Shown here one piece after another: positions 1 through 44,391 of a stretch of DNA of 64,000 nt. Location: positions 1 to 64,000 of the forward strand of contig JAFVZB010000094.1 of NCBI GenBank assembly GCA_017508385.1. Reading direction: 5' to 3'. Numbering within the stretch: the stretch's first letter is position 1; the number at the start of each line of letters is the position of its first letter. This DNA comes from Lentisphaeria bacterium (GTDB lineage: Bacteria > Verrucomicrobiota > Lentisphaeria > Victivallales > Victivallaceae). Below the pieces are notes generated by a model, which did not search any database, had not been told where the DNA came from, and was given only the letters and a program-made list of their open reading frames with translations. The position numbers were made by a program, and so were the translations under genes.

Positions 1-1031
1 CATATAATATAGCACACTTCTCAAACTCTACAAGCCCCAACAGCGGATCCCCGTTCCTTCTCCGGACTAAGAATATAGCACACTTCTCAAACTCTACAAG
101 CCCCAACCCGGTATTGAGATTTTCCCAAAAAACGGAAAATATAGCACACTTCTCAAACTCTACAAGCCCCAACTTTGTGGCAATAGATACGGCTTTTGGG
201 GTTAATATAGCACACTTCTCAAACTCTACAAGCCCCAACCGAGACGTGCGATTACTACCAACAACGGAAAATATAGCACACTTCTCAAACTCTACAAGCC
301 CCAACTATATTAGACGGGGAAAGAGTTCTCCGTAAAATATAGCACACTTCTCAAACTCTACAAGCCCCAACGAAGAGGTGGAAGATGCTGAAAATTGAAA
401 AAATATAGCACACTTCTCAAACTCTACAAGCCCCAACCGTTATATTATACAGTAGATGGTAAAAGTTAATATAGCACACTTCTCAAACTCTACAAGCCCC
501 AACGCGGGGGACGCTTCCGGTTGACAGATTTTGAATATAGCACACTTCTCAAACTCTACAAGCCCCAACGAATTCATGCGCCGACCGTAAAGCGCGGCTA
601 ATATAGCACACTTCTCAAACTCTACAAGCCCCAACACCTGACCGCCGGAAGAAACAAGATTGAAAAATATAGCACACTTCTCAAACTCTACAAGCCCCAA
701 CATAAGTCAAGGGGTGAAGCCGGAGGGCTGTAATATAGCACACTTCTCAAACTCTACAAGCCCCAACTCAGTATTCGTTACGGATACCGCCATCCGAAAT
801 ATAGCACACTTCTCAAACTCTACAAGCCCCAACCCACTGCCCGCTTGGTATCAGACCGGAGACAATATAGCACACTTCTCAAACTCTACAAGCCCCAACC
901 CAATGGCAGGTAACATAATAGCGGCAACAAATATAGCACACTTCTCAAACTCTACAAGCCCCAACAGGAGCTCAAACCCTTGCAGACTCCGAAAGAATAT
1001 AGCACACTTCTCAAACTCTACAAGCCCCAGC
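1..1031 (-). CRISPR. CRISPR array, type II-C-like, truncated by window start
   Basis: There are sixteen 36-bp direct repeats starting at 6, 72, 138 and so on every 66 bp to 996, separated by fifteen unique 30-bp spacers with no length variation. On the plus strand each repeat begins AATATAGCACAC and ends AAGCCCCAAC. On the minus strand it begins GTTGGGGCTTG and ends GTGTGCTATATT, an extended -10 element like the one closing Neisseria type II-C repeats. Transcription is therefore inferred leftward, starting inside each spacer. The last copy (996-1031) carries A to G at 1030, the only change seen, which marks this as an array end. Bases 1-5 are the tail of a further spacer, so the array continues to the left, where cas9, cas1, cas2 and the tracrRNA would be expected. 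Type II is inferred from the 36+30 geometry and the repeat promoter, not from cas genes. Confidence 0.95.
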
Positions 1032-1077: not shown

Positions 1078-2859
1078 TTAACGGTGGACGTCTACTACGT
1101 CTCCTCCGAAAAGTTCGAGGATCTCTGCTACTTCCGGGTCGTCGGAAATTTCACGCTTTACGTTTACTGAGTCGTTGATGATGCTGCGGCGCGGCTTTTT
1201 GGATTCAGGAGCAAGCAACTTGGAGTTGTTCTCTTCTGCAAGTTTTTCCATGATAACACTGTTATCAAGATTGTGATTTATCCGGATATCCTCTGCGGCA
1301 GGGTCATTGCCGTCATCATCCATTATCATCACAGTCTCCTCGGCCGGCTCTGTCACCTGCACGGCAGGTTTCTGCTGAACTTTTATCTGAGTTGCAAGCA
1401 CTTCCTCAGGGTCTGGCTCATCAAAGGTTCTTTCCACTTCTACCGTTCCAACAACCGGCTCAGGCTTTATTTCAACCGGAGTTTCGCTTATCGGCTCAGG
1501 TTTTATTTCAACCGGAGTTTCGCTTATCGGCTCAGGTTTTATTTCAGGCTTTGGCGGTTCAACTGCTTTGACCGGTTCTGAAATCGCAGTATGTCCGGAT
1601 TCCTCCGGAGCTGACATCCTGCTTTTGATATCCACAGGTTCTGACGGCTGAACCGGAGCGTTTTCCCGCACTGCCGCAGGAAGTGTATCAAGGAACTTCA
1701 ACTCCCCTGCTCCACGCAGTTGATTGAGCCGGTTCAGGATATCACTTACACGCACGGCGTGAGCTTCACGCATGGCTTTGAGCAAAATCGTTTCAAGATA
1801 CACCTGTTTATTCAGTGCATCGTGCAGGACTCTGCCCACAGGAGAAACCGTCTCAAGCAGTATTTGCAGGGTCTCACGGTCAGTGGTCAAAGCTATTTGT
1901 TTCCAGCGGGCAATAGTTTCCTGACTTTCATCAAGCAAGTCCGACGGGTCCGGCATGATGGAGCAAAGATGCACAGCTCTCAGCATCGAGAGCAGGTCGT
2001 CAAAGAGCGTCTCAAGGTTTTTTCCCCGCTTTGCAAGTGCCCCTATAACGGAAACCACATCCGCAGGTTTATTGCGAATCATCGACTCAAGCAGAAGCTC
2101 AAGGTCTCCGCTGTTGGTGAGTCCGAAAAGTGTCAAAACCTGCTGTTCGGTTATCTGCTGACCATCCATCGAGAAATAGGCGATCATCTGGTCGAGCAAG
2201 CTCTGAGCATCACGCATTCCGCCCTCAGCGGCACGGGCGATGGCATTGATAGCGTTATCATCCAGATTGACGTGCTCTGTTTCGGCAATAAGTTTCAACC
2301 GCTCTGATATCAATTTCGTCGGAATCGGCAGCAGATCAAATCTCTGGCAACGGGATATGATGGTCGGGAGCACCTGGTGAACCTCTGTCGTCGCAAAGAT
2401 AAATTTGACGTGTTCCGGAGGCTCTTCAACGGTTTTAAGCAAAACGTTCCATGCCGCCTTGCTGAGCATGTGCACCTCGTCGATGATATATATTTTGTAT
2501 CTTCCTGAACTCGGACGGGTCAAAACATCCTCAGAAAGCTCTCTCATATCATTGGTGGAGTTGCGGCTGGCGGCGTCAACTTCGATAACATCAAGACTGC
2601 GCTCCTCAAAAATGGCACGGCAGCTTTCGCACTCACAACAGGGCTCTCCGTTACGATCATCCAGGCAGTTCATCGCCTTGGCAAAAATTCGGGCCAGCGT
2701 TGTTTTACCCACTCCACGGGGACCGACAAACAAGTAAGCGTGAGCTGTGCGCTTGCTTTCAATGGCATTGAGCAGAGTACGCACTACATGCTGCTGACCG
2801 ACAACGTCGGAAAACTTTGCCGGACGCCACTTTCTGGCTATTACCTGATACTCAGCCAT
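1078..2859 (-). CDS. dnaX: DNA polymerase III subunit gamma/tau
   Basis: This is the clamp-loader ATPase of the replicative polymerase. Visible features in the 593-residue protein are Walker A GPRGVGKTT (about 46-54), a zinc-binding cysteine cluster (C65, C74/75, C77, C80), Walker B IIDEVH (125-130) and the sensor motif SRC (169-171). A long Pro/Glu-rich linker at about 430-500 separates the ATPase core from an acidic C-terminal tail. The ATG at 2859 is chosen because GGAG lies 11 bases upstream and the family starts MAEYQVIARKWRP; an in-frame TTG at 2868 sits too close to that site. It begins 2 bp after the rph stop codon, so the two are co-transcribed. I see no convincing frameshift site for a short gamma form. 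Confidence 0.96.
   Translation of the reverse strand: MAEYQVIARKWRPAKFSDVVGQQHVVRTLLNAIESKRTAHAYLFVGPRGVGKTTLARIFAKAMNCLDDRNGEPCCECESCRAIFEERSLDVIEVDAASRNSTNDMRELSEDVLTRPSSGRYKIYIIDEVHMLSKAAWNVLLKTVEEPPEHVKFIFATTEVHQVLPTIISRCQRFDLLPIPTKLISERLKLIAETEHVNLDDNAINAIARAAEGGMRDAQSLLDQMIAYFSMDGQQITEQQVLTLFGLTNSGDLELLLESMIRNKPADVVSVIGALAKRGKNLETLFDDLLSMLRAVHLCSIMPDPSDLLDESQETIARWKQIALTTDRETLQILLETVSPVGRVLHDALNKQVYLETILLKAMREAHAVRVSDILNRLNQLRGAGELKFLDTLPAAVRENAPVQPSEPVDIKSRMSAPEESGHTAISEPVKAVEPPKPEIKPEPISETPVEIKPEPISETPVEIKPEPVVGTVEVERTFDEPDPEEVLATQIKVQQKPAVQVTEPAEETVMIMDDDGNDPAAEDIRINHNLDNSVIMEKLAEENNSKLLAPESKKPRRSIINDSVNVKREISDDPEVAEILELFGGDVVDVHR
1457..1545 (-). repeat. 36-bp tandem repeat inside dnaX linker
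   Basis: Two and a half copies of a 36-bp unit (1457-1492, 1493-1528, partial 1529-1545) encode a 12-residue repeat, EIKPEPISETPV. The two full copies differ at one base (C/T), which suggests a recent duplication in the tau linker. Confidence 0.85.
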
Positions 2860-2861
2860 AA

Positions 2862-3572
2862 TCAGCAATTCTCCAATATGCTGCGCTGAAGGGCAAATAT
2901 CTGTTTTGCTCCGTGCCCGGCAAGATCAAGCAGCTCATTGAGCTGACTTCTGGAAAAGGGTTTATCCTCGGCAGTACCCTGCACCTCGATGAGTTTGCCG
3001 CTCTCAGTCATAACGACATTCATATCCACCTCGGCGGCGGAATCCTCTTCGTAACAGAGGTCGAGCATGGCAACGCCGTTGACTATGCCGACGCTGACTG
3101 CCGCCACCATCTCTTTGAATGCCGGAATATCATTTCTCTTGCACGCCATCGCCAAAGCAAGGGCTCCTCCGGAAATACTGGCGCAACGGGTTCCTCCGTC
3201 GGCATCGATCACATCGCAATCGACAAGGCATGTACGCTCACCGAGAGCGACAAGGTCGGTCGCCATACGCAGGGATCGTCCGATAAGCCGCTGTATCTCA
3301 ACGGTTCTTCCGGATTGTTTGCCGGATGAGGCTTCGCGTTTGACACGCTCACCGGTAGCCGACGGCAACATTCCATACTCTCCGGTGACCCAGCCGCCTG
3401 CAACTTTCTGATTTTTCATCCACTGCGGAACTTTATCTTCGAGCGTCGCAGCGCAAATGACTCTGGTATTGCCGCAGGAAACAAGCACCGACCCTGCCGG
3501 ATGTTTGAGGTAATTCGGAATTATACTCCACTCACGGAGCTGTTCTGGTGTTCTGCCGTCACATCTTGTCAT
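2862..3572 (-). CDS. rph: Ribonuclease PH
   Basis: RNase PH is a phosphorolytic 3'-to-5' exoribonuclease that trims tRNA precursors. The 236-residue product matches the usual length and starts [13 protein letters not shown], typical of the family. It has the conserved [20 protein letters not shown] segment and ends near FALQ. The start at 3572 is supported by CAGGA six bases upstream; the frame is open for 52 more codons, but that part overlaps the SRP RNA and lacks similarity. The gene lies downstream of ffs and just ahead of dnaX, giving the order ffs-rph-dnaX. Confidence 0.95.
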
Positions 3573-3608
3573 AATATTCCTGCCTTTTCTGCAATGTATT
3601 TCCGCAAC

Positions 3609-3625
3609 AAAAAAAGAGCCGCCGG
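3609..3625 (-). terminator. Intrinsic terminator of SRP RNA
   Basis: The closing arm of the SRP terminal stem (CCGGCGGC) is followed by TC and seven T at 3615-3609. The RNA's long hairpin plus U-tract would terminate transcription, although rph and dnaX downstream would then need read-through or another promoter. Confidence 0.7.
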
Positions 3626-3726
3626 AACAGATTACTCGCGGCCTGTCAAAAAACGCGTAGGGCTGCTTGGTTCCCCACCTGACCCGGTTGGCGCTTTTGA
3701 CAACGCACGAGGTCCATCCCGGCGGC
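3616..3726 (-). ncRNA. ffs: Signal recognition particle RNA (4.5S type)
   Basis: On the minus strand the gap between accD and rph carries the universal SRP domain IV: GGGTCAGG, an apical loop region with GGGGAACC, then AAGCAGCCC. The ends pair perfectly (GCCGCCGG at 3726-3719 with CCGGCGGC at 3625-3618). Inner stems CTCG/CGAG and TTGTCAAAA-GCG/CGCG-TTTTTTGACAG extend the hairpin. At about 111 nt it is the small bacterial form without an Alu domain. A run of seven T follows. It pairs with Ffh to target membrane proteins. Its own promoter is not obvious, so it could be processed from an accD transcript. Confidence 0.93.
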
Positions 3727-3779
3727 AAAAAATCGTCTTAACTGGTCGTCATCAAATGACAACATTTACATAATGTACA

Positions 3780-4631
3780 TTACTTTTTGAAAATTTCAAG
3801 TAGTAAAGCGAGTTCCTTGCGAAGATTTTTTCTTTCCACCACCCGATCTATCAATCCCTTTTCGACCAGAAACTCCGCAGTCTGAAATCCCGGAGGTAAT
3901 TTGGCATTGGTTGTTTCCTGAATCACACGCGGACCGGCGAAGCCGATCATAGCTCCCGGTTCTGCGATCATTATGTCGCTTACAGTGGCAAAACTTGCGG
4001 TAACGCCTCCGTAAGTCGGATTGGTCAAAATAGTAATATACGGTAATTTCGCCTCGTTGTGACGGGAAACTGCTCCGCAGGTCTTTGCCATCTGCATCAG
4101 GCTCAAAATACCCTCCTGCATACGGGCTCCGCCTGATGCGGTCACCAGCACCATCGGCAACTTCTCGGCGGTGGCGGCTTCGATGGTGCGGGTAATTTTT
4201 TCGCCCACGACTGCCCCCATGGATGCTCCCATAAAACGGAAGTCCATCACGGCGATATAATAAGCATGACCATCGACCGCAGTTTTTCCGCAGATGACTG
4301 CTTCGTTCATGCCGGTCTTTTTGATGCTCTCGGCAAGTCTTGCCGTGTACGGCTTGCTGTCGGTGAACTTCAAAGCATCGACCGAACGCAGATTGCTGAA
4401 CATCTCAACAAAACTGCCTTCGTCGCTCAACATGGCAATTCGCTCCGGAGCAGTCATCGGAAGATGCGCTCCGCAGTTCCAGCAAACCTGCAGAGTATCT
4501 GCCAGACGATCCGTGTACAGGGTTTGTGAGCAATTTTTGCATTTGACCCATGAACCGTCAGGAATCACCATACGGCTTTCACCGGTACGCTTTTTCAAGG
4601 TTGAATATTTTCCGCTGCTGAACAATGACAT
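3780..4631 (-). CDS. accD: Acetyl-CoA carboxylase carboxyltransferase subunit beta
   Basis: AccD transfers the carboxyl group from biotin to acetyl-CoA in the first step of fatty acid synthesis, together with AccA. The 283-residue protein has an N-terminal zinc ribbon (C31, C34, C50, C53), a carboxyltransferase core with VTASGGARMQEG, and the C-terminal GFAGPRVIQET typical of the beta subunit. The ATG at 4631 is preferred because GGAGG lies 8 bases upstream; an in-frame GTG at 4640 is itself part of that site. accA is not in the window. The gene lies between purQ and the SRP RNA, with a 23-bp gap to purQ. Confidence 0.95.
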   Translation of the reverse strand: MSLFSSGKYSTLKKRTGESRMVIPDGSWVKCKNCSQTLYTDRLADTLQVCWNCGAHLPMTAPERIAMLSDEGSFVEMFSNLRSVDALKFTDSKPYTARLAESIKKTGMNEAVICGKTAVDGHAYYIAVMDFRFMGASMGAVVGEKITRTIEAATAEKLPMVLVTASGGARMQEGILSLMQMAKTCGAVSRHNEAKLPYITILTNPTYGGVTASFATVSDIMIAEPGAMIGFAGPRVIQETTNAKLPPGFQTAEFLVEKGLIDRVVERKNLRKELALLLEIFKK

Positions 4632-4654
4632 TTTGTTCACCTCCGCAGTTTGGA

Positions 4655-5464
4655 TTAGAAATTCTTTTCGAGGTACTCTGCCGCATTGCGGAAGAATACG
4701 ACTCCGTCGCCATCTTCCGGAAGTTTACCGTTTTCAGCCATCTGACGGGTCCAGTCAGGAGCGTTGTACGGTGAGAGGAATGCCTCGGGGTGCGGCATCA
4801 GACCGAAAACTCTTCCGGTCGGGTCGCAAATTCCGGCAATCGAGTTGAGTGAGCCGTTGGGATTGGCAGGAAACTCGGTCGCAAACGAACCATCGGCGTT
4901 GGCATAACGGACAGCAACCAAGTTGCGCTCCTCGATCTCTGCGAGCACCTCAGGTGAAGCAACGAACTTGCCCTCTCCGTGGCGCAGAGGCAGACGGATC
5001 ATATCAACTCCCTTAGTGAAGACGCAGGGACTCTTTTCATTGGCTTTGAGACGGCACCAGTCATCACGGAACACTCCTGAATCGTTGTGCGCCAATGCCG
5101 CAGTCTGAGTGAAGTAATCACCGTTGAGAGCGGGAACCATGCCGAGACGGGTGAGAGTCTGGAATCCGTTGCAGATACCGATGACCAGTTTGCCGTCAGC
5201 AACAAATTTCTCGAGCTGATCTCTCAGAGAAAACTTTACACGGTTGGCAAAAACGGTTCCTGAACCGAGGTGGTCTCCGAAAGAGAAGCCGCCGATGAAA
5301 CAGAGAAAATGGTACTCGTCAAGAGTGTGTTTCCCTGAGATCAGGTCGTTGAGGTGGATTTGCTCGGGAGTAAGTCCCGCAAGTTTGCACGCAGCAGCGG
5401 TCTCTTTTTCGCAATTGAGACCGAAGCCCGTGATCACCAGTGCTTTGATGTCTGATTTTTTCAT
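4655..5464 (-). CDS. purQ: Phosphoribosylformylglycinamidine synthase, glutaminase subunit
   Basis: PurQ releases ammonia from glutamine for formylglycinamidine ribonucleotide synthesis in purine biosynthesis. The 269-residue protein is a class I glutamine amidotransferase with the nucleophile C98 in GICNGFQTL and the His/Glu pair in PHPEAF (H225, E227). It is longer than the classic 220-residue PurQ and resembles the amidotransferase part of large PurL proteins, as in other lineages with PurL and PurQ split. It starts 7 bp after the argJ stop codon, without a clear ribosome binding site, so translational coupling to argJ is likely. purL and purS are not present here. Confidence 0.92.
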   Translation of the reverse strand: MKKSDIKALVITGFGLNCEKETAAACKLAGLTPEQIHLNDLISGKHTLDEYHFLCFIGGFSFGDHLGSGTVFANRVKFSLRDQLEKFVADGKLVIGICNGFQTLTRLGMVPALNGDYFTQTAALAHNDSGVFRDDWCRLKANEKSPCVFTKGVDMIRLPLRHGEGKFVASPEVLAEIEERNLVAVRYANADGSFATEFPANPNGSLNSIAGICDPTGRVFGLMPHPEAFLSPYNAPDWTRQMAENGKLPEDGDGVVFFRNAAEYLEKNF

Positions 5465-5471
5465 GATGGTA

Positions 5472-6698
5472 TTATGTGTGATAATCTGCGTTGATTTTTA
5501 CATATTCATAGGATATATCGCTGCTCCAGACCCAATAGTCGGAACCGCCCTCTTTGAAATCACAACGGATAGTGAATGAATCCTTTTTGACAATATCCGC
5601 CAAATCAGACTCAGGAGTTCCGGCATCGCCGCCATCGGTGACGACCGGCACACCGTCGTAATAAATATCGCAAAGTTCAGGATCGAAATCTGCTCCGGAG
5701 TATCCGAGAGCTGCGACCACCCTGCCCCAGTTGGGGTCATTGCCGAACCACGCCGTCTTGCAGAGCAGAGAGTTTGCAACCGCCTCAGCGGCAAGTTTTG
5801 CATCTTTGACACTTTTGGCATTGACAACCTCAACAGTGACAACTTTTGTTGCACCCTCTCCGTCAGTGACCATCTTGCGGGCAAGAGTCTGCATCACTTC
5901 GAGCAGGGCTGCTTTGAAGAGCTTTTCATTCTCACTGCCGGGAACGATCTCGACTTGTGATTTGCCGTTGGCAAGCATGAGAACAGTATCGTTGGTACTC
6001 ATGTCACCGTCAACGGTAATGCGGTTGAATGAGTCATCGGCATTTACCTCAAGCATCGCCTGCAATGTGGCGTTATCCGCCTTGACATCGGTGGTGATAA
6101 AGCAGAGCATTGTCGCATGGAGTCCGACCAGATGGGGGTCGATCATACCTGCGCCCTTGGTCATTGCTCCGATGGTGACTTTTTTGCCATCGAGTTCAAG
6201 TTCAACTGCGACCGCTTTCGGAACGGTATCGGTGGTCATGATCGCCTGAGCAGCGTTGTTTCCGCCATCGGCACTCAAAGCTGCGACCGCAAGATCGAGT
6301 CCTTTTTCAATGGTATCCATCGGCATCTGAACACCGATGCGTCCGGTGGAACCGACTGCCACTTCATCAGGAGTGATCCCGAGACGGGCTGCTGCCATTG
6401 CGCAGGTGAGTCTTGCGTTGTCAAGTCCCGCCTTGCCGGTACAGGCGTTGGCGTTGCCGCTGTTCACGGCGACCGCTGAAAGGGTTCCACCGTTTTTCAC
6501 CCGCTCACGACAGAGACGTACCGGAGCTGCGGCGAATGTGCAGCTGGTAAAAACTCCGGCGAAATTGGCAGGAGTATCTGACACGAGAAGAGCAAAATCA
6601 GGTGCTCCGCTGCGTTTGAATCCGGCTGTAACTCCGGCTGCCCGGAATCCCGGAACGCTGGTCGTACTGCCGTTTTCGATAAATTTGAAGTTACCCAT
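5472..6698 (-). CDS. argJ: Bifunctional glutamate N-acetyltransferase / ornithine acetyltransferase
   Basis: ArgJ recycles the acetyl group between N-acetylornithine and glutamate in arginine synthesis. The precursor self-cleaves before a threonine; here the motif KGAGMIDPHL...HATML is present, with T196 as the predicted new N-terminal nucleophile. The length of 408 residues is normal. The ATG at 6698 has GGAG nine bases upstream and overlaps the queF stop (ATGGGTAA), so the two genes are translationally coupled. argG is about 12 kb away on the same strand; other arg genes are absent. Confidence 0.95.
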   Translation of the reverse strand: MGNFKFIENGSTTSVPGFRAAGVTAGFKRSGAPDFALLVSDTPANFAGVFTSCTFAAAPVRLCRERVKNGGTLSAVAVNSGNANACTGKAGLDNARLTCAMAAARLGITPDEVAVGSTGRIGVQMPMDTIEKGLDLAVAALSADGGNNAAQAIMTTDTVPKAVAVELELDGKKVTIGAMTKGAGMIDPHLVGLHATMLCFITTDVKADNATLQAMLEVNADDSFNRITVDGDMSTNDTVLMLANGKSQVEIVPGSENEKLFKAALLEVMQTLARKMVTDGEGATKVVTVEVVNAKSVKDAKLAAEAVANSLLCKTAWFGNDPNWGRVVAALGYSGADFDPELCDIYYDGVPVVTDGGDAGTPESDLADIVKKDSFTIRCDFKEGGSDYWVWSSDISYEYVKINADYHT

Positions 6699-7122
6699 TG
6701 ATAGCATCTCCATAAGTTGCCTTGACGTTGATCGCTATTCCGCCGCGGGGACGGAAACGCCCCACGACCTCTGCACGACGGGGAGCACACGCCTTGACTA
6801 TGGCATCAAGAATATGGTTGACCGCCTCTTCATGGAACGTATTTGAGTTGCGGAACGAGTAGAGAAAAAGTTTAAGGCTCTTGCTCTCAATACACTTTTT
6901 ATCTGCCACATAACGGATGATTATATGCCCGAAATCCGGCTGTCCGGTAACGGGACACAGAGAGGTGTACTCAGGACAGTCGAACTCAATGATATAATCA
7001 CGGTCGGCATAAAGATTGTCAAAGGTCTCAAGCTGCGCTTCCCCCGGTGCTGTCGGATACCTGGTGTTTCCGGCAGTAAGCAAAGTAAGCTTGCTGAAAC
7101 GCTCTTTTGAATTCATTTCCAT
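6691..7122 (-). CDS. queF: NADPH-dependent 7-cyano-7-deazaguanine reductase
   Basis: QueF reduces preQ0 to preQ1 in queuosine biosynthesis. It is the short (type I) form, about 143 residues, with catalytic C56 in SLCPVTGQPDFG and the signature ESKSLKLFL (79-87). Two starts are possible. A GTG at 7158 would put the start codon about 4 bases after the predicted transcription start, so the ATG at 7122 (or the ATG two codons later) is preferred, even though its Shine-Dalgarno (TGGAA) is weak. tgt, which inserts preQ1 into tRNA, lies in the same window at 34189-35298. Confidence 0.93.
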   Translation of the reverse strand: MEMNSKERFSKLTLLTAGNTRYPTAPGEAQLETFDNLYADRDYIIEFDCPEYTSLCPVTGQPDFGHIIIRYVADKKCIESKSLKLFLYSFRNSNTFHEEAVNHILDAIVKACAPRRAEVVGRFRPRGGIAINVKATYGDAING

Positions 7123-7168
7123 AATATATTCCAGTACATTATCGTCAATAGACTGCACACACTTTATT

Positions 7169-7197
7169 AATATAGCACACTATTTATCATTTCGCAA
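7169..7197 (-). promoter_or_regulatory. Promoter of queF operon
   Basis: On the minus strand, -35 TTGCGA (7197-7192), a 17-bp spacer and -10 TATATT (7174-7169), with TGC just before the -10. The 12 bases GTGTGCTATATT are identical to the end of the CRISPR repeat. Confidence 0.8.
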
Positions 7198-7216
7198 CTT
7201 GATTTTTTCAACCTGT

Positions 7217-9631
7217 TCATCTGCCGCACAACTTTTGTGCCGCACGGACGGAATCCATGGGAGTATTACCGTAAACTGCGCCTATCATTTCAGCAAAAGT
7301 CTCATCGACAACAGCTCCGCCGACAATGAAATCAATATCAAGTTTACGCTCTTTTGCGAGAGCCACCACCTCTTGCATACTGCCCATCGTAGTTGTCATA
7401 AGAGCAGAAAGCAGAACGACCTTGACACCTTTTTCGACAGCAGTATCAAGTATGCGTTCCGCCGGAACATCTTTTCCGAGGTCTATTACGTCAAAATCAT
7501 AATTTTTCAACATCACCGCCACGATGTTTTTACCGATATCATGGATATCGCCTTTTACAGTTGCGATGATGACCGGAGTCTTTGTTATGTTTCCCGAACC
7601 TGAAAGCATGAAGGGTTCGAGATACTCCATCGCCTTTTGCATAGTCCGGGCACTGCTGATGAGCTGAGGCAGAAAATACTCTTTTCGACTGTATTTTTCA
7701 CCTACTTCGGTTATTGCAGGAATCAGTATGCTGTCGATCATATCCTGAACACTCTTTTCCGCCATGACGGCACCGCACAGTCCGTCGATATTGGAACTGT
7801 TGCCCTGCATGACCGCCTGATACAATCTCTCTCCTGCACTCAACTTCTCTGTATCAGCAACTTTGACTGCCGCTGAAACATCGGCGTATCTGCCAATGAA
7901 ACGGGAAAAATCCAAATCATTTCCGGTAAGGACATCCCTGGAATTTATCAGCTCGGTTATATCCGAAAAGAGCGGATTGGCAATAGCCATGTTCAATCCC
8001 CTGCCCATCGCCATACCGAGAAAAGTCTTATTGATCAGCTGACGTGCAGGAAGTCCGAAACTCACGTTGGATAATCCGCAAACAGTATTCAATCCCCGCC
8101 TGCTGCAGCACTCAATAACATCGAGAGCTGTCTTTGCCGCCGATGGGTCGGCAGAAACTGTCATAACAAGAGCATCCACACAGATATCTTTTTCAGAATA
8201 TCCCAGCTCCGCCGCCTGAGCGATTATTTTATCCACGATTTCCATGCGTTCACGGGCAGTTTTCGGAATACCGTCATCGGTAAGCGGCAGAACTATCAGC
8301 ATTGCTCCATATTTTTTTGCGATCGGCAGAGTCTTTTCCAAACGCACCTTTTCCGCCGAAATCGAATTGAGCAGCGCCCTTCCGGGATAGAGACGCAATG
8401 CGGCTTCCACGGTTTCCGGGTCGGTGGAGTCTATGCAAAGTATTCCATTCGTACCCTGCACCAGACGGCGTACGGCACTTTGCATCATCTCTTTTTCATT
8501 TATTCCTGATAATCCCATATTGACATCAAGGACATGTGCTCCGGAGGATATCTGCTGCATGGCAAAATCAAATACCATATCAAGTTTACCCTCACGCAGC
8601 TCGGCTTGGAGTGCCTTTTTGCCGGTCGGATTTATTCTCTCTCCGATAAGGGTAAATGGGGCATCAACCGAAATTGCCCGGTAATCAGACGGAGATGCAA
8701 TGACACTTCCGGTGTATTCTCTCTTTTCGGGAAGCTCTGTTTTTTCAAGCGTTTTTGCCAATGCGGCAATGTGCGCCGGAGTCGTTCCGCAACAGCCGCC
8801 GAGAATAGTTGCTCCGGCTTCGATCAGACATGGAGCGTATGAGGCAAACTCCTCTGCCGCCATCGGAAAAACCGTTCTGCCGTTTTCAAACTTCGGCAAT
8901 CCGGCATTAGGTTTGGCAATCAGCGGGATTTTGGCGTACGGAGCCATTTGAGATATGACTAGCGCCATATCATCCGGCCCGGTTGAACAATTGCATCCGA
9001 AAGCATCGGCTCCGAGAGCTTGAAGCGTGACCAGAGCTGATACCGGATGAACTCCGGTGAGAGTCCGTCCGGTATTTTCAAAGGTCATGGTCACGATACA
9101 GGGCAAATCCGGAGCTGCCTCTTTGCATCCGATGAGAGCGGCTCTTGACTCCTGCAAATCCATCATGGTTTCGATGGCAAACCCGTCTGCTCCATTGGCG
9201 GCAAGTATCTCTGCAAGGCGGCGGAACACTGACACTGCCTCTTCAAACGGCATATCACCGAACGGCTCGATAAATCTTCCAGTCGGAGCGATATCTCCGA
9301 ACACAAAAACTCCTTTGGAAGAAGCGTTCTCTTTGGTGATGCGCATCAGAGAACCGATTATTTCTTCCTGACGTCTGGCGAGTCCGAACTCCTCAAGTTT
9401 GCAGGAGTTTCCTCCGAATGTAGGAGCATAAACAATGTTGCTTCCTGCTGCAATATAGGCATTGTGCACACTTATTATCGAGTCAGGATTTTCATAAATC
9501 CAAAGTTCCGGAGCAACTCCGGCAGGCATACCGGATTTGCTCAGTTCTGTTCCGGTGGCTCCATCGAGCACCACTGCTTTTTTTGTCAATTCACAAAATT
9601 CACGTTTGGTCATAAACGGCTCTGCTTTCAT
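7217..9631 (-). CDS. metH: Cobalamin-dependent methionine synthase lacking the activation domain
   Basis: MetH moves a methyl group from methyltetrahydrofolate via cobalamin to homocysteine. Domains in the 804-residue protein are: homocysteine binding with zinc cysteines C215, C280 and C281 (1-300), pterin binding starting at TLIGERINPTGKK (about 327-580), B12 cap (about 595-680) and B12 binding with DIHDIG, H697 being the cobalt ligand (685-804). The usual C-terminal SAM-binding reactivation domain is missing, and the protein stops where full-length MetH (about 1200 residues) would enter it. That domain is encoded by the upstream gene, overlapping by 4 bp (ATGA). Confidence 0.95.
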   Translation of the reverse strand: MKAEPFMTKREFCELTKKAVVLDGATGTELSKSGMPAGVAPELWIYENPDSIISVHNAYIAAGSNIVYAPTFGGNSCKLEEFGLARRQEEIIGSLMRITKENASSKGVFVFGDIAPTGRFIEPFGDMPFEEAVSVFRRLAEILAANGADGFAIETMMDLQESRAALIGCKEAAPDLPCIVTMTFENTGRTLTGVHPVSALVTLQALGADAFGCNCSTGPDDMALVISQMAPYAKIPLIAKPNAGLPKFENGRTVFPMAAEEFASYAPCLIEAGATILGGCCGTTPAHIAALAKTLEKTELPEKREYTGSVIASPSDYRAISVDAPFTLIGERINPTGKKALQAELREGKLDMVFDFAMQQISSGAHVLDVNMGLSGINEKEMMQSAVRRLVQGTNGILCIDSTDPETVEAALRLYPGRALLNSISAEKVRLEKTLPIAKKYGAMLIVLPLTDDGIPKTARERMEIVDKIIAQAAELGYSEKDICVDALVMTVSADPSAAKTALDVIECCSRRGLNTVCGLSNVSFGLPARQLINKTFLGMAMGRGLNMAIANPLFSDITELINSRDVLTGNDLDFSRFIGRYADVSAAVKVADTEKLSAGERLYQAVMQGNSSNIDGLCGAVMAEKSVQDMIDSILIPAITEVGEKYSRKEYFLPQLISSARTMQKAMEYLEPFMLSGSGNITKTPVIIATVKGDIHDIGKNIVAVMLKNYDFDVIDLGKDVPAERILDTAVEKGVKVVLLSALMTTTMGSMQEVVALAKERKLDIDFIVGGAVVDETFAEMIGAVYGNTPMDSVRAAQKLCGR

Positions 9632-10248
9632 TGTTTTTGCAGCATGACAGGCGCAACTGCCGTCACACTTTTTTCAGGTATCATAAAACAGTTTTCAGTA
9701 AGAGTTATTCCCATATCCTGCATTTCCAGAATGCGGTAAAACACTTTTTGTTCCTCAAGCGGCATATCGCCGTAGCCGGGAGAGTATCGTCTTGACTCCA
9801 GCACTCCGCCAAATCTGGCAAGATGAGCGAATGTCATTTTCTGCAGCATATCCATAGTTTCATCTGCCATCTCACTTGCGACTGCATCATAAACTGCCGC
9901 CGCAGAAATATCATTCAAGCTGTCGCGAGCTTCAACGATTTCCCCGCCGACAGTTACCGCCGCAAACCAGACGTATCCTGCCTCTGAGAGCCGGTCAGCA
10001 AACATTTTTCCGTGAAGGATATTGCCATCAGTGAAATAAATTGCACCATCTTTTATTGAGTATGTCTTCTTTATCATCCACCTGCCCTGAGGATGACAGA
10101 GAGTATATGCCTCTGCTGCAAGTTTGCTGTAACGTGCATGCTCCGCATCGCTCAATTCAGTAAGCGCGACGTTGCCGCCGAGACGGAAAAACACCGCCTT
10201 TTCAGGATAAACAACATTGAGTTGCGGATATGTGTGAAGACGCTCCAT
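9628..10248 (-). CDS. Stand-alone methionine synthase activation domain protein
   Basis: The 206-residue protein ends with the MetH activation-domain signature: RRYSPGYGDMPLEEQK, then GITLTENCFMIPEKSVTAV (compare RxSPGYxxxPxxxQ and GIxLTExxMMxPxxSxS). In full-length MetH this domain binds S-adenosylmethionine and re-methylates oxidised cob(II)alamin, so here it probably reactivates the adjacent short MetH in trans. Known examples of such a split are the Thermotoga-type proteins. The ATG at 10248 directly follows the phosphatase stop codon (TGAATATG). Its stop overlaps the metH start. Confidence 0.9.
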   Translation of the reverse strand: MERLHTYPQLNVVYPEKAVFFRLGGNVALTELSDAEHARYSKLAAEAYTLCHPQGRWMIKKTYSIKDGAIYFTDGNILHGKMFADRLSEAGYVWFAAVTVGGEIVEARDSLNDISAAAVYDAVASEMADETMDMLQKMTFAHLARFGGVLESRRYSPGYGDMPLEEQKVFYRILEMQDMGITLTENCFMIPEKSVTAVAPVMLQKQ

Positions 10249-25082: not shown

Positions 25083-25105
25083 CTCTCCTGTCATGCGCAG
25101 GAAAA
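25083..25105 (-). promoter_or_regulatory. Hairpin covering the pseudopilin ribosome binding site
   Basis: On the minus strand TTTTCCTG (25105-25098), loop CGCATGA and CAGGAGAG (25090-25083) form an 8-bp stem with two G-U pairs. The 3' arm contains most of the ribosome binding site (AGGAGAGAGGA). This would be the expression platform by which the upstream riboswitch blocks translation. Confidence 0.6.
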
Positions 25106-25126
25106 GTTGTAACGGCAATGCTTTAA

Positions 25127-25229
25127 TCCGGAAGTTGAGGATCTGGCTCGGCAGAATTTTCATTCAGCCATCACAGTTGCGCGACAGCTCCCGATTTTCA
25201 CGGGATTCACTCAAAATATTTGTTCCGGA
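25127..25229 (-). promoter_or_regulatory. Cobalamin (B12) riboswitch
   Basis: The minus-strand leader contains the B12-box core: GAATCCCGTGAAAATCGGGA, then GCTGTCGCGCAACTGTGATGG, and downstream GAGCCAGATCC, matching the family's conserved AGCCAGnnnACC. A closing stem pairs TCCGGAA (25229-25223) with TTCCGGA (25133-25127). At about 103 nt it is a compact form. The transcription start predicted from the -10 at 25250-25245 falls just upstream. Bound cobalamin would lower expression of the pseudopilin and btuF-like genes, probably at translation. Confidence 0.9.
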
Positions 25230-44362: not shown

Positions 44363-44391
44363 TTGTATTGAATATAGCACACGATTATATT
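44363..44391 (+). promoter_or_regulatory. Promoter of pdxST
   Basis: -35 TTGTAT (44363-44368), 17-bp spacer, -10 TATATT (44386-44391). Start near 44398, leader about 34 nt, with AAAAGGAG before the ATG. Confidence 0.75.

Follow-up and report, generated by a model that had tools for sequence, protein, structure and literature searches.

Repeat-embedded extended -10 promoters were reportedly described by Zhang et al. in 2013 for the type II-C system of Neisseria meningitidis. Accounts of that system (PMC5006608, PMC7038990) place such promoters within its repeats, and in Campylobacter jejuni 5'-RACE puts a sigma-70 -10 of the form gnTAnAAT at the 3' end of each II-C repeat (PMC4607530). Among 132 type II systems, one survey described the 3' -10 of II-C repeats, the convergent orientation and the degenerate state of the far repeat; repeats and cas genes clustered alike, and transfer of whole units was deduced there (PMC4607530). 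Repeat-borne promoters are now taken as the II-C norm, with mutations reported in "extra" repeats (PMC12080349), and exceptions are recorded in Bacteroidota (PMC5006608). For Flavobacterium columnare and F. psychrophilum, the authors deduced a host-style TTG 33-35 bp upstream of each spacer (PMC8092290, PMC10309648). A literature search, with most subscription journals outside its scope, turned up no paper in which the two repeat halves are treated separately or the repeat -10 is set against the host -10.

The window analysed here is a stretch of 64,000 nucleotides, the first 64 kb of contig C69 in a host assembly of 94 contigs (86% complete). Window position 1 is the contig start, which truncates a CRISPR array:

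6-1031, minus strand: CRISPR array, 16 repeats of 36 bp (GTTGGGGCTTGTAGAGTTTGAGAAGTGTGCTATATT) and 15 full spacers
996-1031, minus strand: terminal repeat (leader-distal, presumed oldest, "extra"), T2>C variant
996-1007, minus strand: GTGTGCTATATT, an extended -10 (TGnTATATT) at the repeat 3' end
930-941, 864-875, 798-809, 732-743, 666-677, 600-611, 534-545, 468-479, 402-413, 336-347, 270-281, 204-215, 138-149, 72-83 and 6-17, minus strand: further array copies of GTGTGCTATATT
1018-1023, minus strand: candidate -35 TTGTAG at repeat positions 9-14, 16-bp spacer to TATATT, equal offset in all repeats
1078-2868, minus strand: dnaX-like gene (DNA polymerase III gamma/tau), on the array strand

Repeats start 66 bp apart (from 6-41 to 996-1031, window coordinates, minus strand), all 15 full spacers are 30 nt long, and 15 of the 16 repeats are identical, the one at 996-1031 differing by the single change T2>C. 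As the original prediction held, an extended -10 lies at the repeat-spacer border: the 16 window repeats all end in GTGTGCTATATT, as do all 26 array repeats once those on contig C53 are included. The candidate -35 sits within the tracrRNA-pairing half of the repeat and, with its 16-bp spacer, is weaker than the host norm. Elsewhere in the window, a bacterial small SRP RNA was found at 3622-3719 (minus strand, 61.6 bits) and a cobalamin riboswitch at 25084-25208 (minus strand, 31.5 bits, exactly the Rfam cut-off).

Contig C53 opens (1-651) with 10 more repeats, oriented as expected if the reverse complement of C69 runs into C53. The identical repeat, the position of both contig ends inside an array and the matching orientation suggest that the array probably continues from one contig onto the other; the partial spacers at the two ends (5 and 22 nt) do not overlap and are compatible with one 30-nt spacer minus 3 nt. 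The rest of the locus follows on C53:

751-1077, strand opposite the array: cas2 (TIGR01573)
1081-1986, strand opposite the array: cas1 (TIGR03639, type II/NMENI, 253 bits)
1952-5005, strand opposite the array: cas9, 1017 aa (TIGR01865, 629 bits)
near 5108-5180, plus strand: tracrRNA, divergent from cas9, with anti-repeat AACTCTACAAGTCCTGAT
5164-5182: intrinsic terminator of the tracrRNA

The cas complement is thus cas9, cas1 and cas2 in a row, without csn2 (II-A) or cas4 (II-B); the three genes are convergent with the array, which lies downstream of cas2, and the reading frame past the tracrRNA is glycosidase-like. Cas9 falls slightly under the II-C range of 1,077 +/- 49 aa (PMC4607530). Its closest named relatives, 75% and 73% identical, are in Lentisphaerota genomes, and relatives from a plasmid collection are at most 35% identical. 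The anti-repeat forms 18 continuous pairs with repeat nt 1-18 (-25.8 kcal/mol), which fixes the crRNA strand independently of any promoter; a plus-strand crRNA would not pair, so the minus-strand direction first proposed is borne out, and the proposed search for cas genes and a tracrRNA near the array has found both, with cas genes of type II. (For L003, L051 and L090, the top match of an anti-repeat scan across loci was not a tracrRNA but an array repeat, variant or degenerate in sequence.) Judged from its sequence, this is an ordinary and complete type II-C locus, probably cut in two by a break in the assembly, and its array would be transcribed antisense to the cas genes. The promoters of cas9 (TTGACA-17-TATATT) and of the tracrRNA (TTGAAA-16-TATATT) both use the -10 TATATT.

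Like the N. meningitidis locus, this one has cas9-cas1-cas2, a convergent array and an extended -10 in the last nine bases of the repeat; unlike it, the hexamer is TATATT, the host's own preferred -10, and the promoter is a prediction from sequence. Promoter position, convergent direction, a tracrRNA with its own -10 and a degenerate far-end repeat are shared with C. jejuni, although the tracrRNA is found downstream of the array there but here upstream of cas9, from which it diverges, and the -10 hexamer differs. The view that such an arrangement would be rare is not supported, since repeat-borne promoters are the published II-C norm (PMC4607530, PMC12080349) and II-C loci are common in the phylum.

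The T2>C repeat at 996-1031 equals the repeat consensus of a relative (L085, genome G326) and forms one C-A mismatch with its own tracrRNA, giving a duplex of -23.5 kcal/mol against -25.8 for the standard repeat; the tracrRNA of the relative has G at the site where the present one has A. For these reasons the repeat looks like a fossil that predates a matched change in repeat and tracrRNA, or else a mutation of the kind reported for "extra" II-C repeats (PMC12080349). A scan of eight spacer seeds against viral contigs, for direction and PAM, yielded no PAM and a single 21-nt match, in two contigs: the 3' 21 nt of the cas2-nearest spacer are exact in a gene of L182 and L183 (IMG/VR contigs, metagenome 3300006428). 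The remaining 9 nt differ at 8 places, and the match may be chance.

The 12 bases at the 3' end of the repeat recur at host genes. The window holds 18 copies of GTGTGCTATATT, 16 in the array and two elsewhere, vs none in 100 shuffles:

7169-7180, minus strand: GTGTGCTATATT as host -10 region of the queF promoter (-35 TTGCGA, 17-bp spacer)
44371-44382, minus strand: GTGTGCTATATT as host -10 region of the promoter of a PdxR-like GntR/aminotransferase gene (-35 TTGATT, 17-bp spacer)
44386-44391, plus strand: divergent host -10 TATATT of a PdxS-type gene promoter (-35 TTGTAT, 17-bp spacer)

Both gene names given at the outset stand, the first encoding QueF (PF14489) and the second a PdxR-like regulator (PF00392+PF00155) divergent from the gene for a PdxS-type SOR/SNZ protein, and the exact recurrence of the 12-mer at their promoters is likewise confirmed. 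Genome-wide there are 33 copies, 26 of them in the array and seven elsewhere. Six of these seven were inspected; their surroundings are AT-rich, and most have both a -35 of the TTG type and a start codon a short way downstream. One of the six lies upstream of rpmF (reading frame MAVPKRKTSRAQ).

A survey of host -10 elements covered 483 kb of host DNA with the array masked and counted TANNNT preceded by TTG at a 16-18-bp spacer in sense-upstream windows. TATATT led with 44 sites, followed by TATCTT (12), TATAAT (10) and TACAAT (1). The spacer is 17 bp in 37 of the 44 TATATT sites, the median distance to the start codon is 42 nt, the commonest -35 is TTGAAA, and the consensus ahead of the hexamer is TGTGn. 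TGTGnTATATT is the host promoter consensus, and GTGTGCTATATT recurs far above shuffled chance because it approximates that consensus. What had seemed special about queF and pdxR dissolves accordingly: they are two among dozens of host promoters with TATATT, and a particular link between these genes and the array is rejected.

The preference extends beyond this genome. Here the pattern TTGAN{15,17}TGNTATATT occurs 74 times vs 10 for its TAYAAT version and 2 for a reversed control; in a scan of 388 genomes of the phylum, other genomes of the same genus gave 9-148 vs 0-12 for TTGAN{15,17}TGNTAYAAT per genome. These counts include array copies in lineage-B genomes, the repeats of which match the patterns; the lineage-A repeats of the present host (TTGT) do not match. 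Same-genus genomes with no detectable Cas9 have a like preference. Genomes of family f39 mostly show the reverse, with TAYAAT above TATATT, and their upstream regions hold TATAAT 16 times, TACAAT five times and TATATT never. For most hosts of the other outside families (f20, f22, f25, f32, f36), the patterns tried gave no host -10; in f25, repeats have TAGGTT or TAGGCT, and TAGGTT counts are low in the hosts. Two other genomes of the genus deserve mention. In G016, a near-identical full promoter, TTGACAAAATATAACSAATGTGCTATATT, occurs about 20-30 times genome-wide, for example at L164:8121-8149, where an aldo/keto-reductase-like gene follows about 125 bp downstream; the copies could represent a regulon or a dispersed repeat that bears a promoter. 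G253 has 24 copies of GTGTGCTATATT (5 forward, 19 reverse) and no Cas9 match at the threshold used, and is probably a case of a II-C array with its cas genes absent from the assembly or lost.

The new element here is comparative: unrelated Cas9 systems in related hosts carry the same host-style -10 box. Repeats were compared across 44 loci, 24 from the family of the host or the sister family (f1/f2) and 20 from other families. Hosts in f1/f2 hold three separate Cas9/Cas1 lineages, which differ in the 5', tracrRNA-pairing half of the repeat:

Lineage A: repeat start GCTGGGGCTTGTAGAG, Cas9 of about 1,020 aa
Lineage B: repeat start GTTGTGATTTGATG, Cas9 of about 1,230 aa
Lineage C: repeat start GTTTTGATTTGAGTG, Cas9 of about 1,040 aa

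TATATT is present in the repeat at 21 of 24 f1/f2 loci, spread over all three lineages, vs 0 of 20 loci elsewhere (Fisher value 1e-9, which ignores relatedness); the counts omit L130 and similar loci and enter L117 as outside without TATATT. These two exemplify lineages with a 1,270-1,480-aa Cas9, the repeats of which are without a 3'-end -10 and of uncertain orientation. Outside f1/f2, a lineage-A repeat has TACAGT (L089) and lineage-B repeats have TACAAT (L106, L114), AACAGT (L107) and TACACT (L136). Between lineages A and B, identity over the last 12 nt is 0.79 if both hosts belong to f1/f2 and 0.43-0.48 otherwise; over the first 16 nt it is 0.36-0.50 whatever the host families. The promoter is complete inside the repeat in all three lineages: A and B have TTG at repeat positions 9-11 and a 16-bp spacer; C has its -10 placed 4 nt earlier, TTG at positions 4-6 and a 17-bp spacer, and its tracrRNA promoters likewise end in TGCTATATT.

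The repeat looks, from these comparisons, like two modules, the 5' one set by Cas9 and tracrRNA and the 3' one by the host RNA polymerase. We consider it likely that this split II-C locus has such a repeat, its first part following the Cas9/tracrRNA lineage and its promoter -10 following the host. Repeat nt 1-18 would pair with the tracrRNA and hence follow its lineage; nt 9-36 would form the promoter TTGTAG-N16-TATATT with TGTGn upstream of the hexamer, firing at the repeat-spacer border. RNA polymerase with the housekeeping sigma factor would bind every repeat, and each crRNA would begin about 6-7 nt past the border with the following spacer. Made up of about 23-24 nt of guide plus the next repeat, it would pair with tracrRNA and then load Cas9; we infer both the individual transcription of repeats and this start site. 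The last, cas2-adjacent repeat would be the acquisition end, and the far one at 996-1031 the oldest. The -10 module would follow the host in that it equals the consensus of the main sigma factor at the host's own genes; from this match, the 12-mer that the repeat has in common with queF and pdxR can be read as shared design for one polymerase. That the repeat was tuned to the host's sigma factor, one of the options raised in the original prediction, gains comparative support from the family counts.

The Cas1 tree offers only three well-supported independent contrasts, which go in the predicted direction; of random pairings, nearly all run that way and none the opposite. The sign test gives p 0.25, and 0.05 is out of reach at three contrasts. 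Three f1/f2 loci are exceptions. L090 (TACATT) and L109 (TATAGT) have hosts with roughly equal use of TATATT and TAYAAT. L096 (genome G109, positions 6562-10098) has a lineage-A Cas9, a tracrRNA and six repeats ending in GTACACTTGATT in a host that strongly prefers TATATT, and is one clear counterexample to the host rule; cas1 and cas2 were sought beside it and not found, and the locus is perhaps decaying.

The simplest alternative is a standard II-C array, the likeness of which to host promoters is just general sigma-70 similarity with no host-specific tuning. The 3' gnTAnaaT is indeed given as general for II-C repeats (PMC4607530), and many outside repeats among the 44 loci also end TANNNT, but the choice of hexamer departs from random: repeats with TATATT occur in f1/f2 hosts only, and in f39, where hosts use TATAAT/TACAAT, two lineage-B repeats end TACAAT. 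We regard this alternative as unlikely.

Host tuning could also be mimicked by recombination, if a resident CRISPR donated its repeat 3' half to incoming systems, so that lineages A and B share GTGTGC and TATATT by copying. Some A and B repeats do share an identical 12-mer, beyond the -10 alone, and both lineages occur in one genus (L003, L108, L124). However, TGTGn is the host consensus ahead of TATATT anyway, and in lineage A the six bases before the hexamer vary (GTGTGC, GTATGC, TGATGC, CAATGC, TGAGGC, ATCGAC) while TATATT is constant; nor would copying of 3' ends be expected to yield the 4-nt shift in lineage C with TTG at a matching 17 bp. Copying seems quite improbable to us, and we infer that selection rather than recombination put the host -10 into each lineage, though exchange between co-resident arrays may have helped a host-style 3' end to spread.

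It is very unlikely, in our estimate, that one promoter outside the array drives it, for example by read-through from dnaX, and that the -10-like repeat ends are idle. The dnaX-like gene is on the array strand and stops about 47 bp short of the repeat at 996-1031, a search between the two found no terminator-like site, and some II-C arrays, as in Riemerella, are without recognisable repeat promoters (PMC5006608). Against this, nearly all 26 repeats preserve TTG-N3-N16-TATATT together with TGTGC, as do, in varied form, those of relatives across long divergence, and the repeat at 996-1031 is mismatched to the tracrRNA, a feature reported for "extra" repeats where arrays are transcribed internally (PMC12080349). 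A shared integrase with Cas1-Cas2 reading the leader-side (3') repeat end, suggested by II-C spacer entry at the last repeat (PMC12080349), by which the 3' end borders the leader, is rejected by the Cas1 phylogeny and hardly credible: lineages are set apart by both the Cas1 and the Cas9 tree, with Cas1 tracking Cas9 and not the 3' end (A and B lie in separate clades), a single Cas1 clade for all lineage-A and -B TATATT repeats is rejected (p-AU 0.0003), and the sister Cas9 pair L087 (f1 host, TATATT) and L089 (f20 host, TACAGT) is split.

With the host-tuned reading preferred, II-C repeats in general may be chimeras, the 5' part co-evolving with Cas9 and tracrRNA and the 3' part repeatedly retuned to the -10 of the current host, such that a horizontally acquired array would need repeat turnover (new spacers copying a mutated leader-side repeat) before good expression; the case for and against this wider proposal strikes us as evenly balanced. 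The Bacteroides uniformis repeat (PMC5609589) may offer a second example of host tuning, from another phylum: it starts GTTGTGATTTG, like lineage B, and, going by the printed repeat, holds TTG-N19-TATCTTTG, in keeping with the Bacteroidetes promoter TAnnTTTG. It is 47 bp long vs 36 here and serves a different sigma-factor consensus.

The system itself is ordinary; the comparison yields a testable rule, that in II-C repeats the promoter half goes with the sigma preference of the host even where Cas9 lineages differ. If true, repeat 3' ends could aid host prediction for unassigned CRISPR arrays, and the rule would help explain why certain II-C arrays seem promoterless when scored with the E. coli consensus. 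A by-product is a -10 consensus, TGTGnTATATT, for a clade of Lentisphaerota on whose promoters we found no published data. The rule would also identify a barrier to the horizontal transfer of CRISPR systems.
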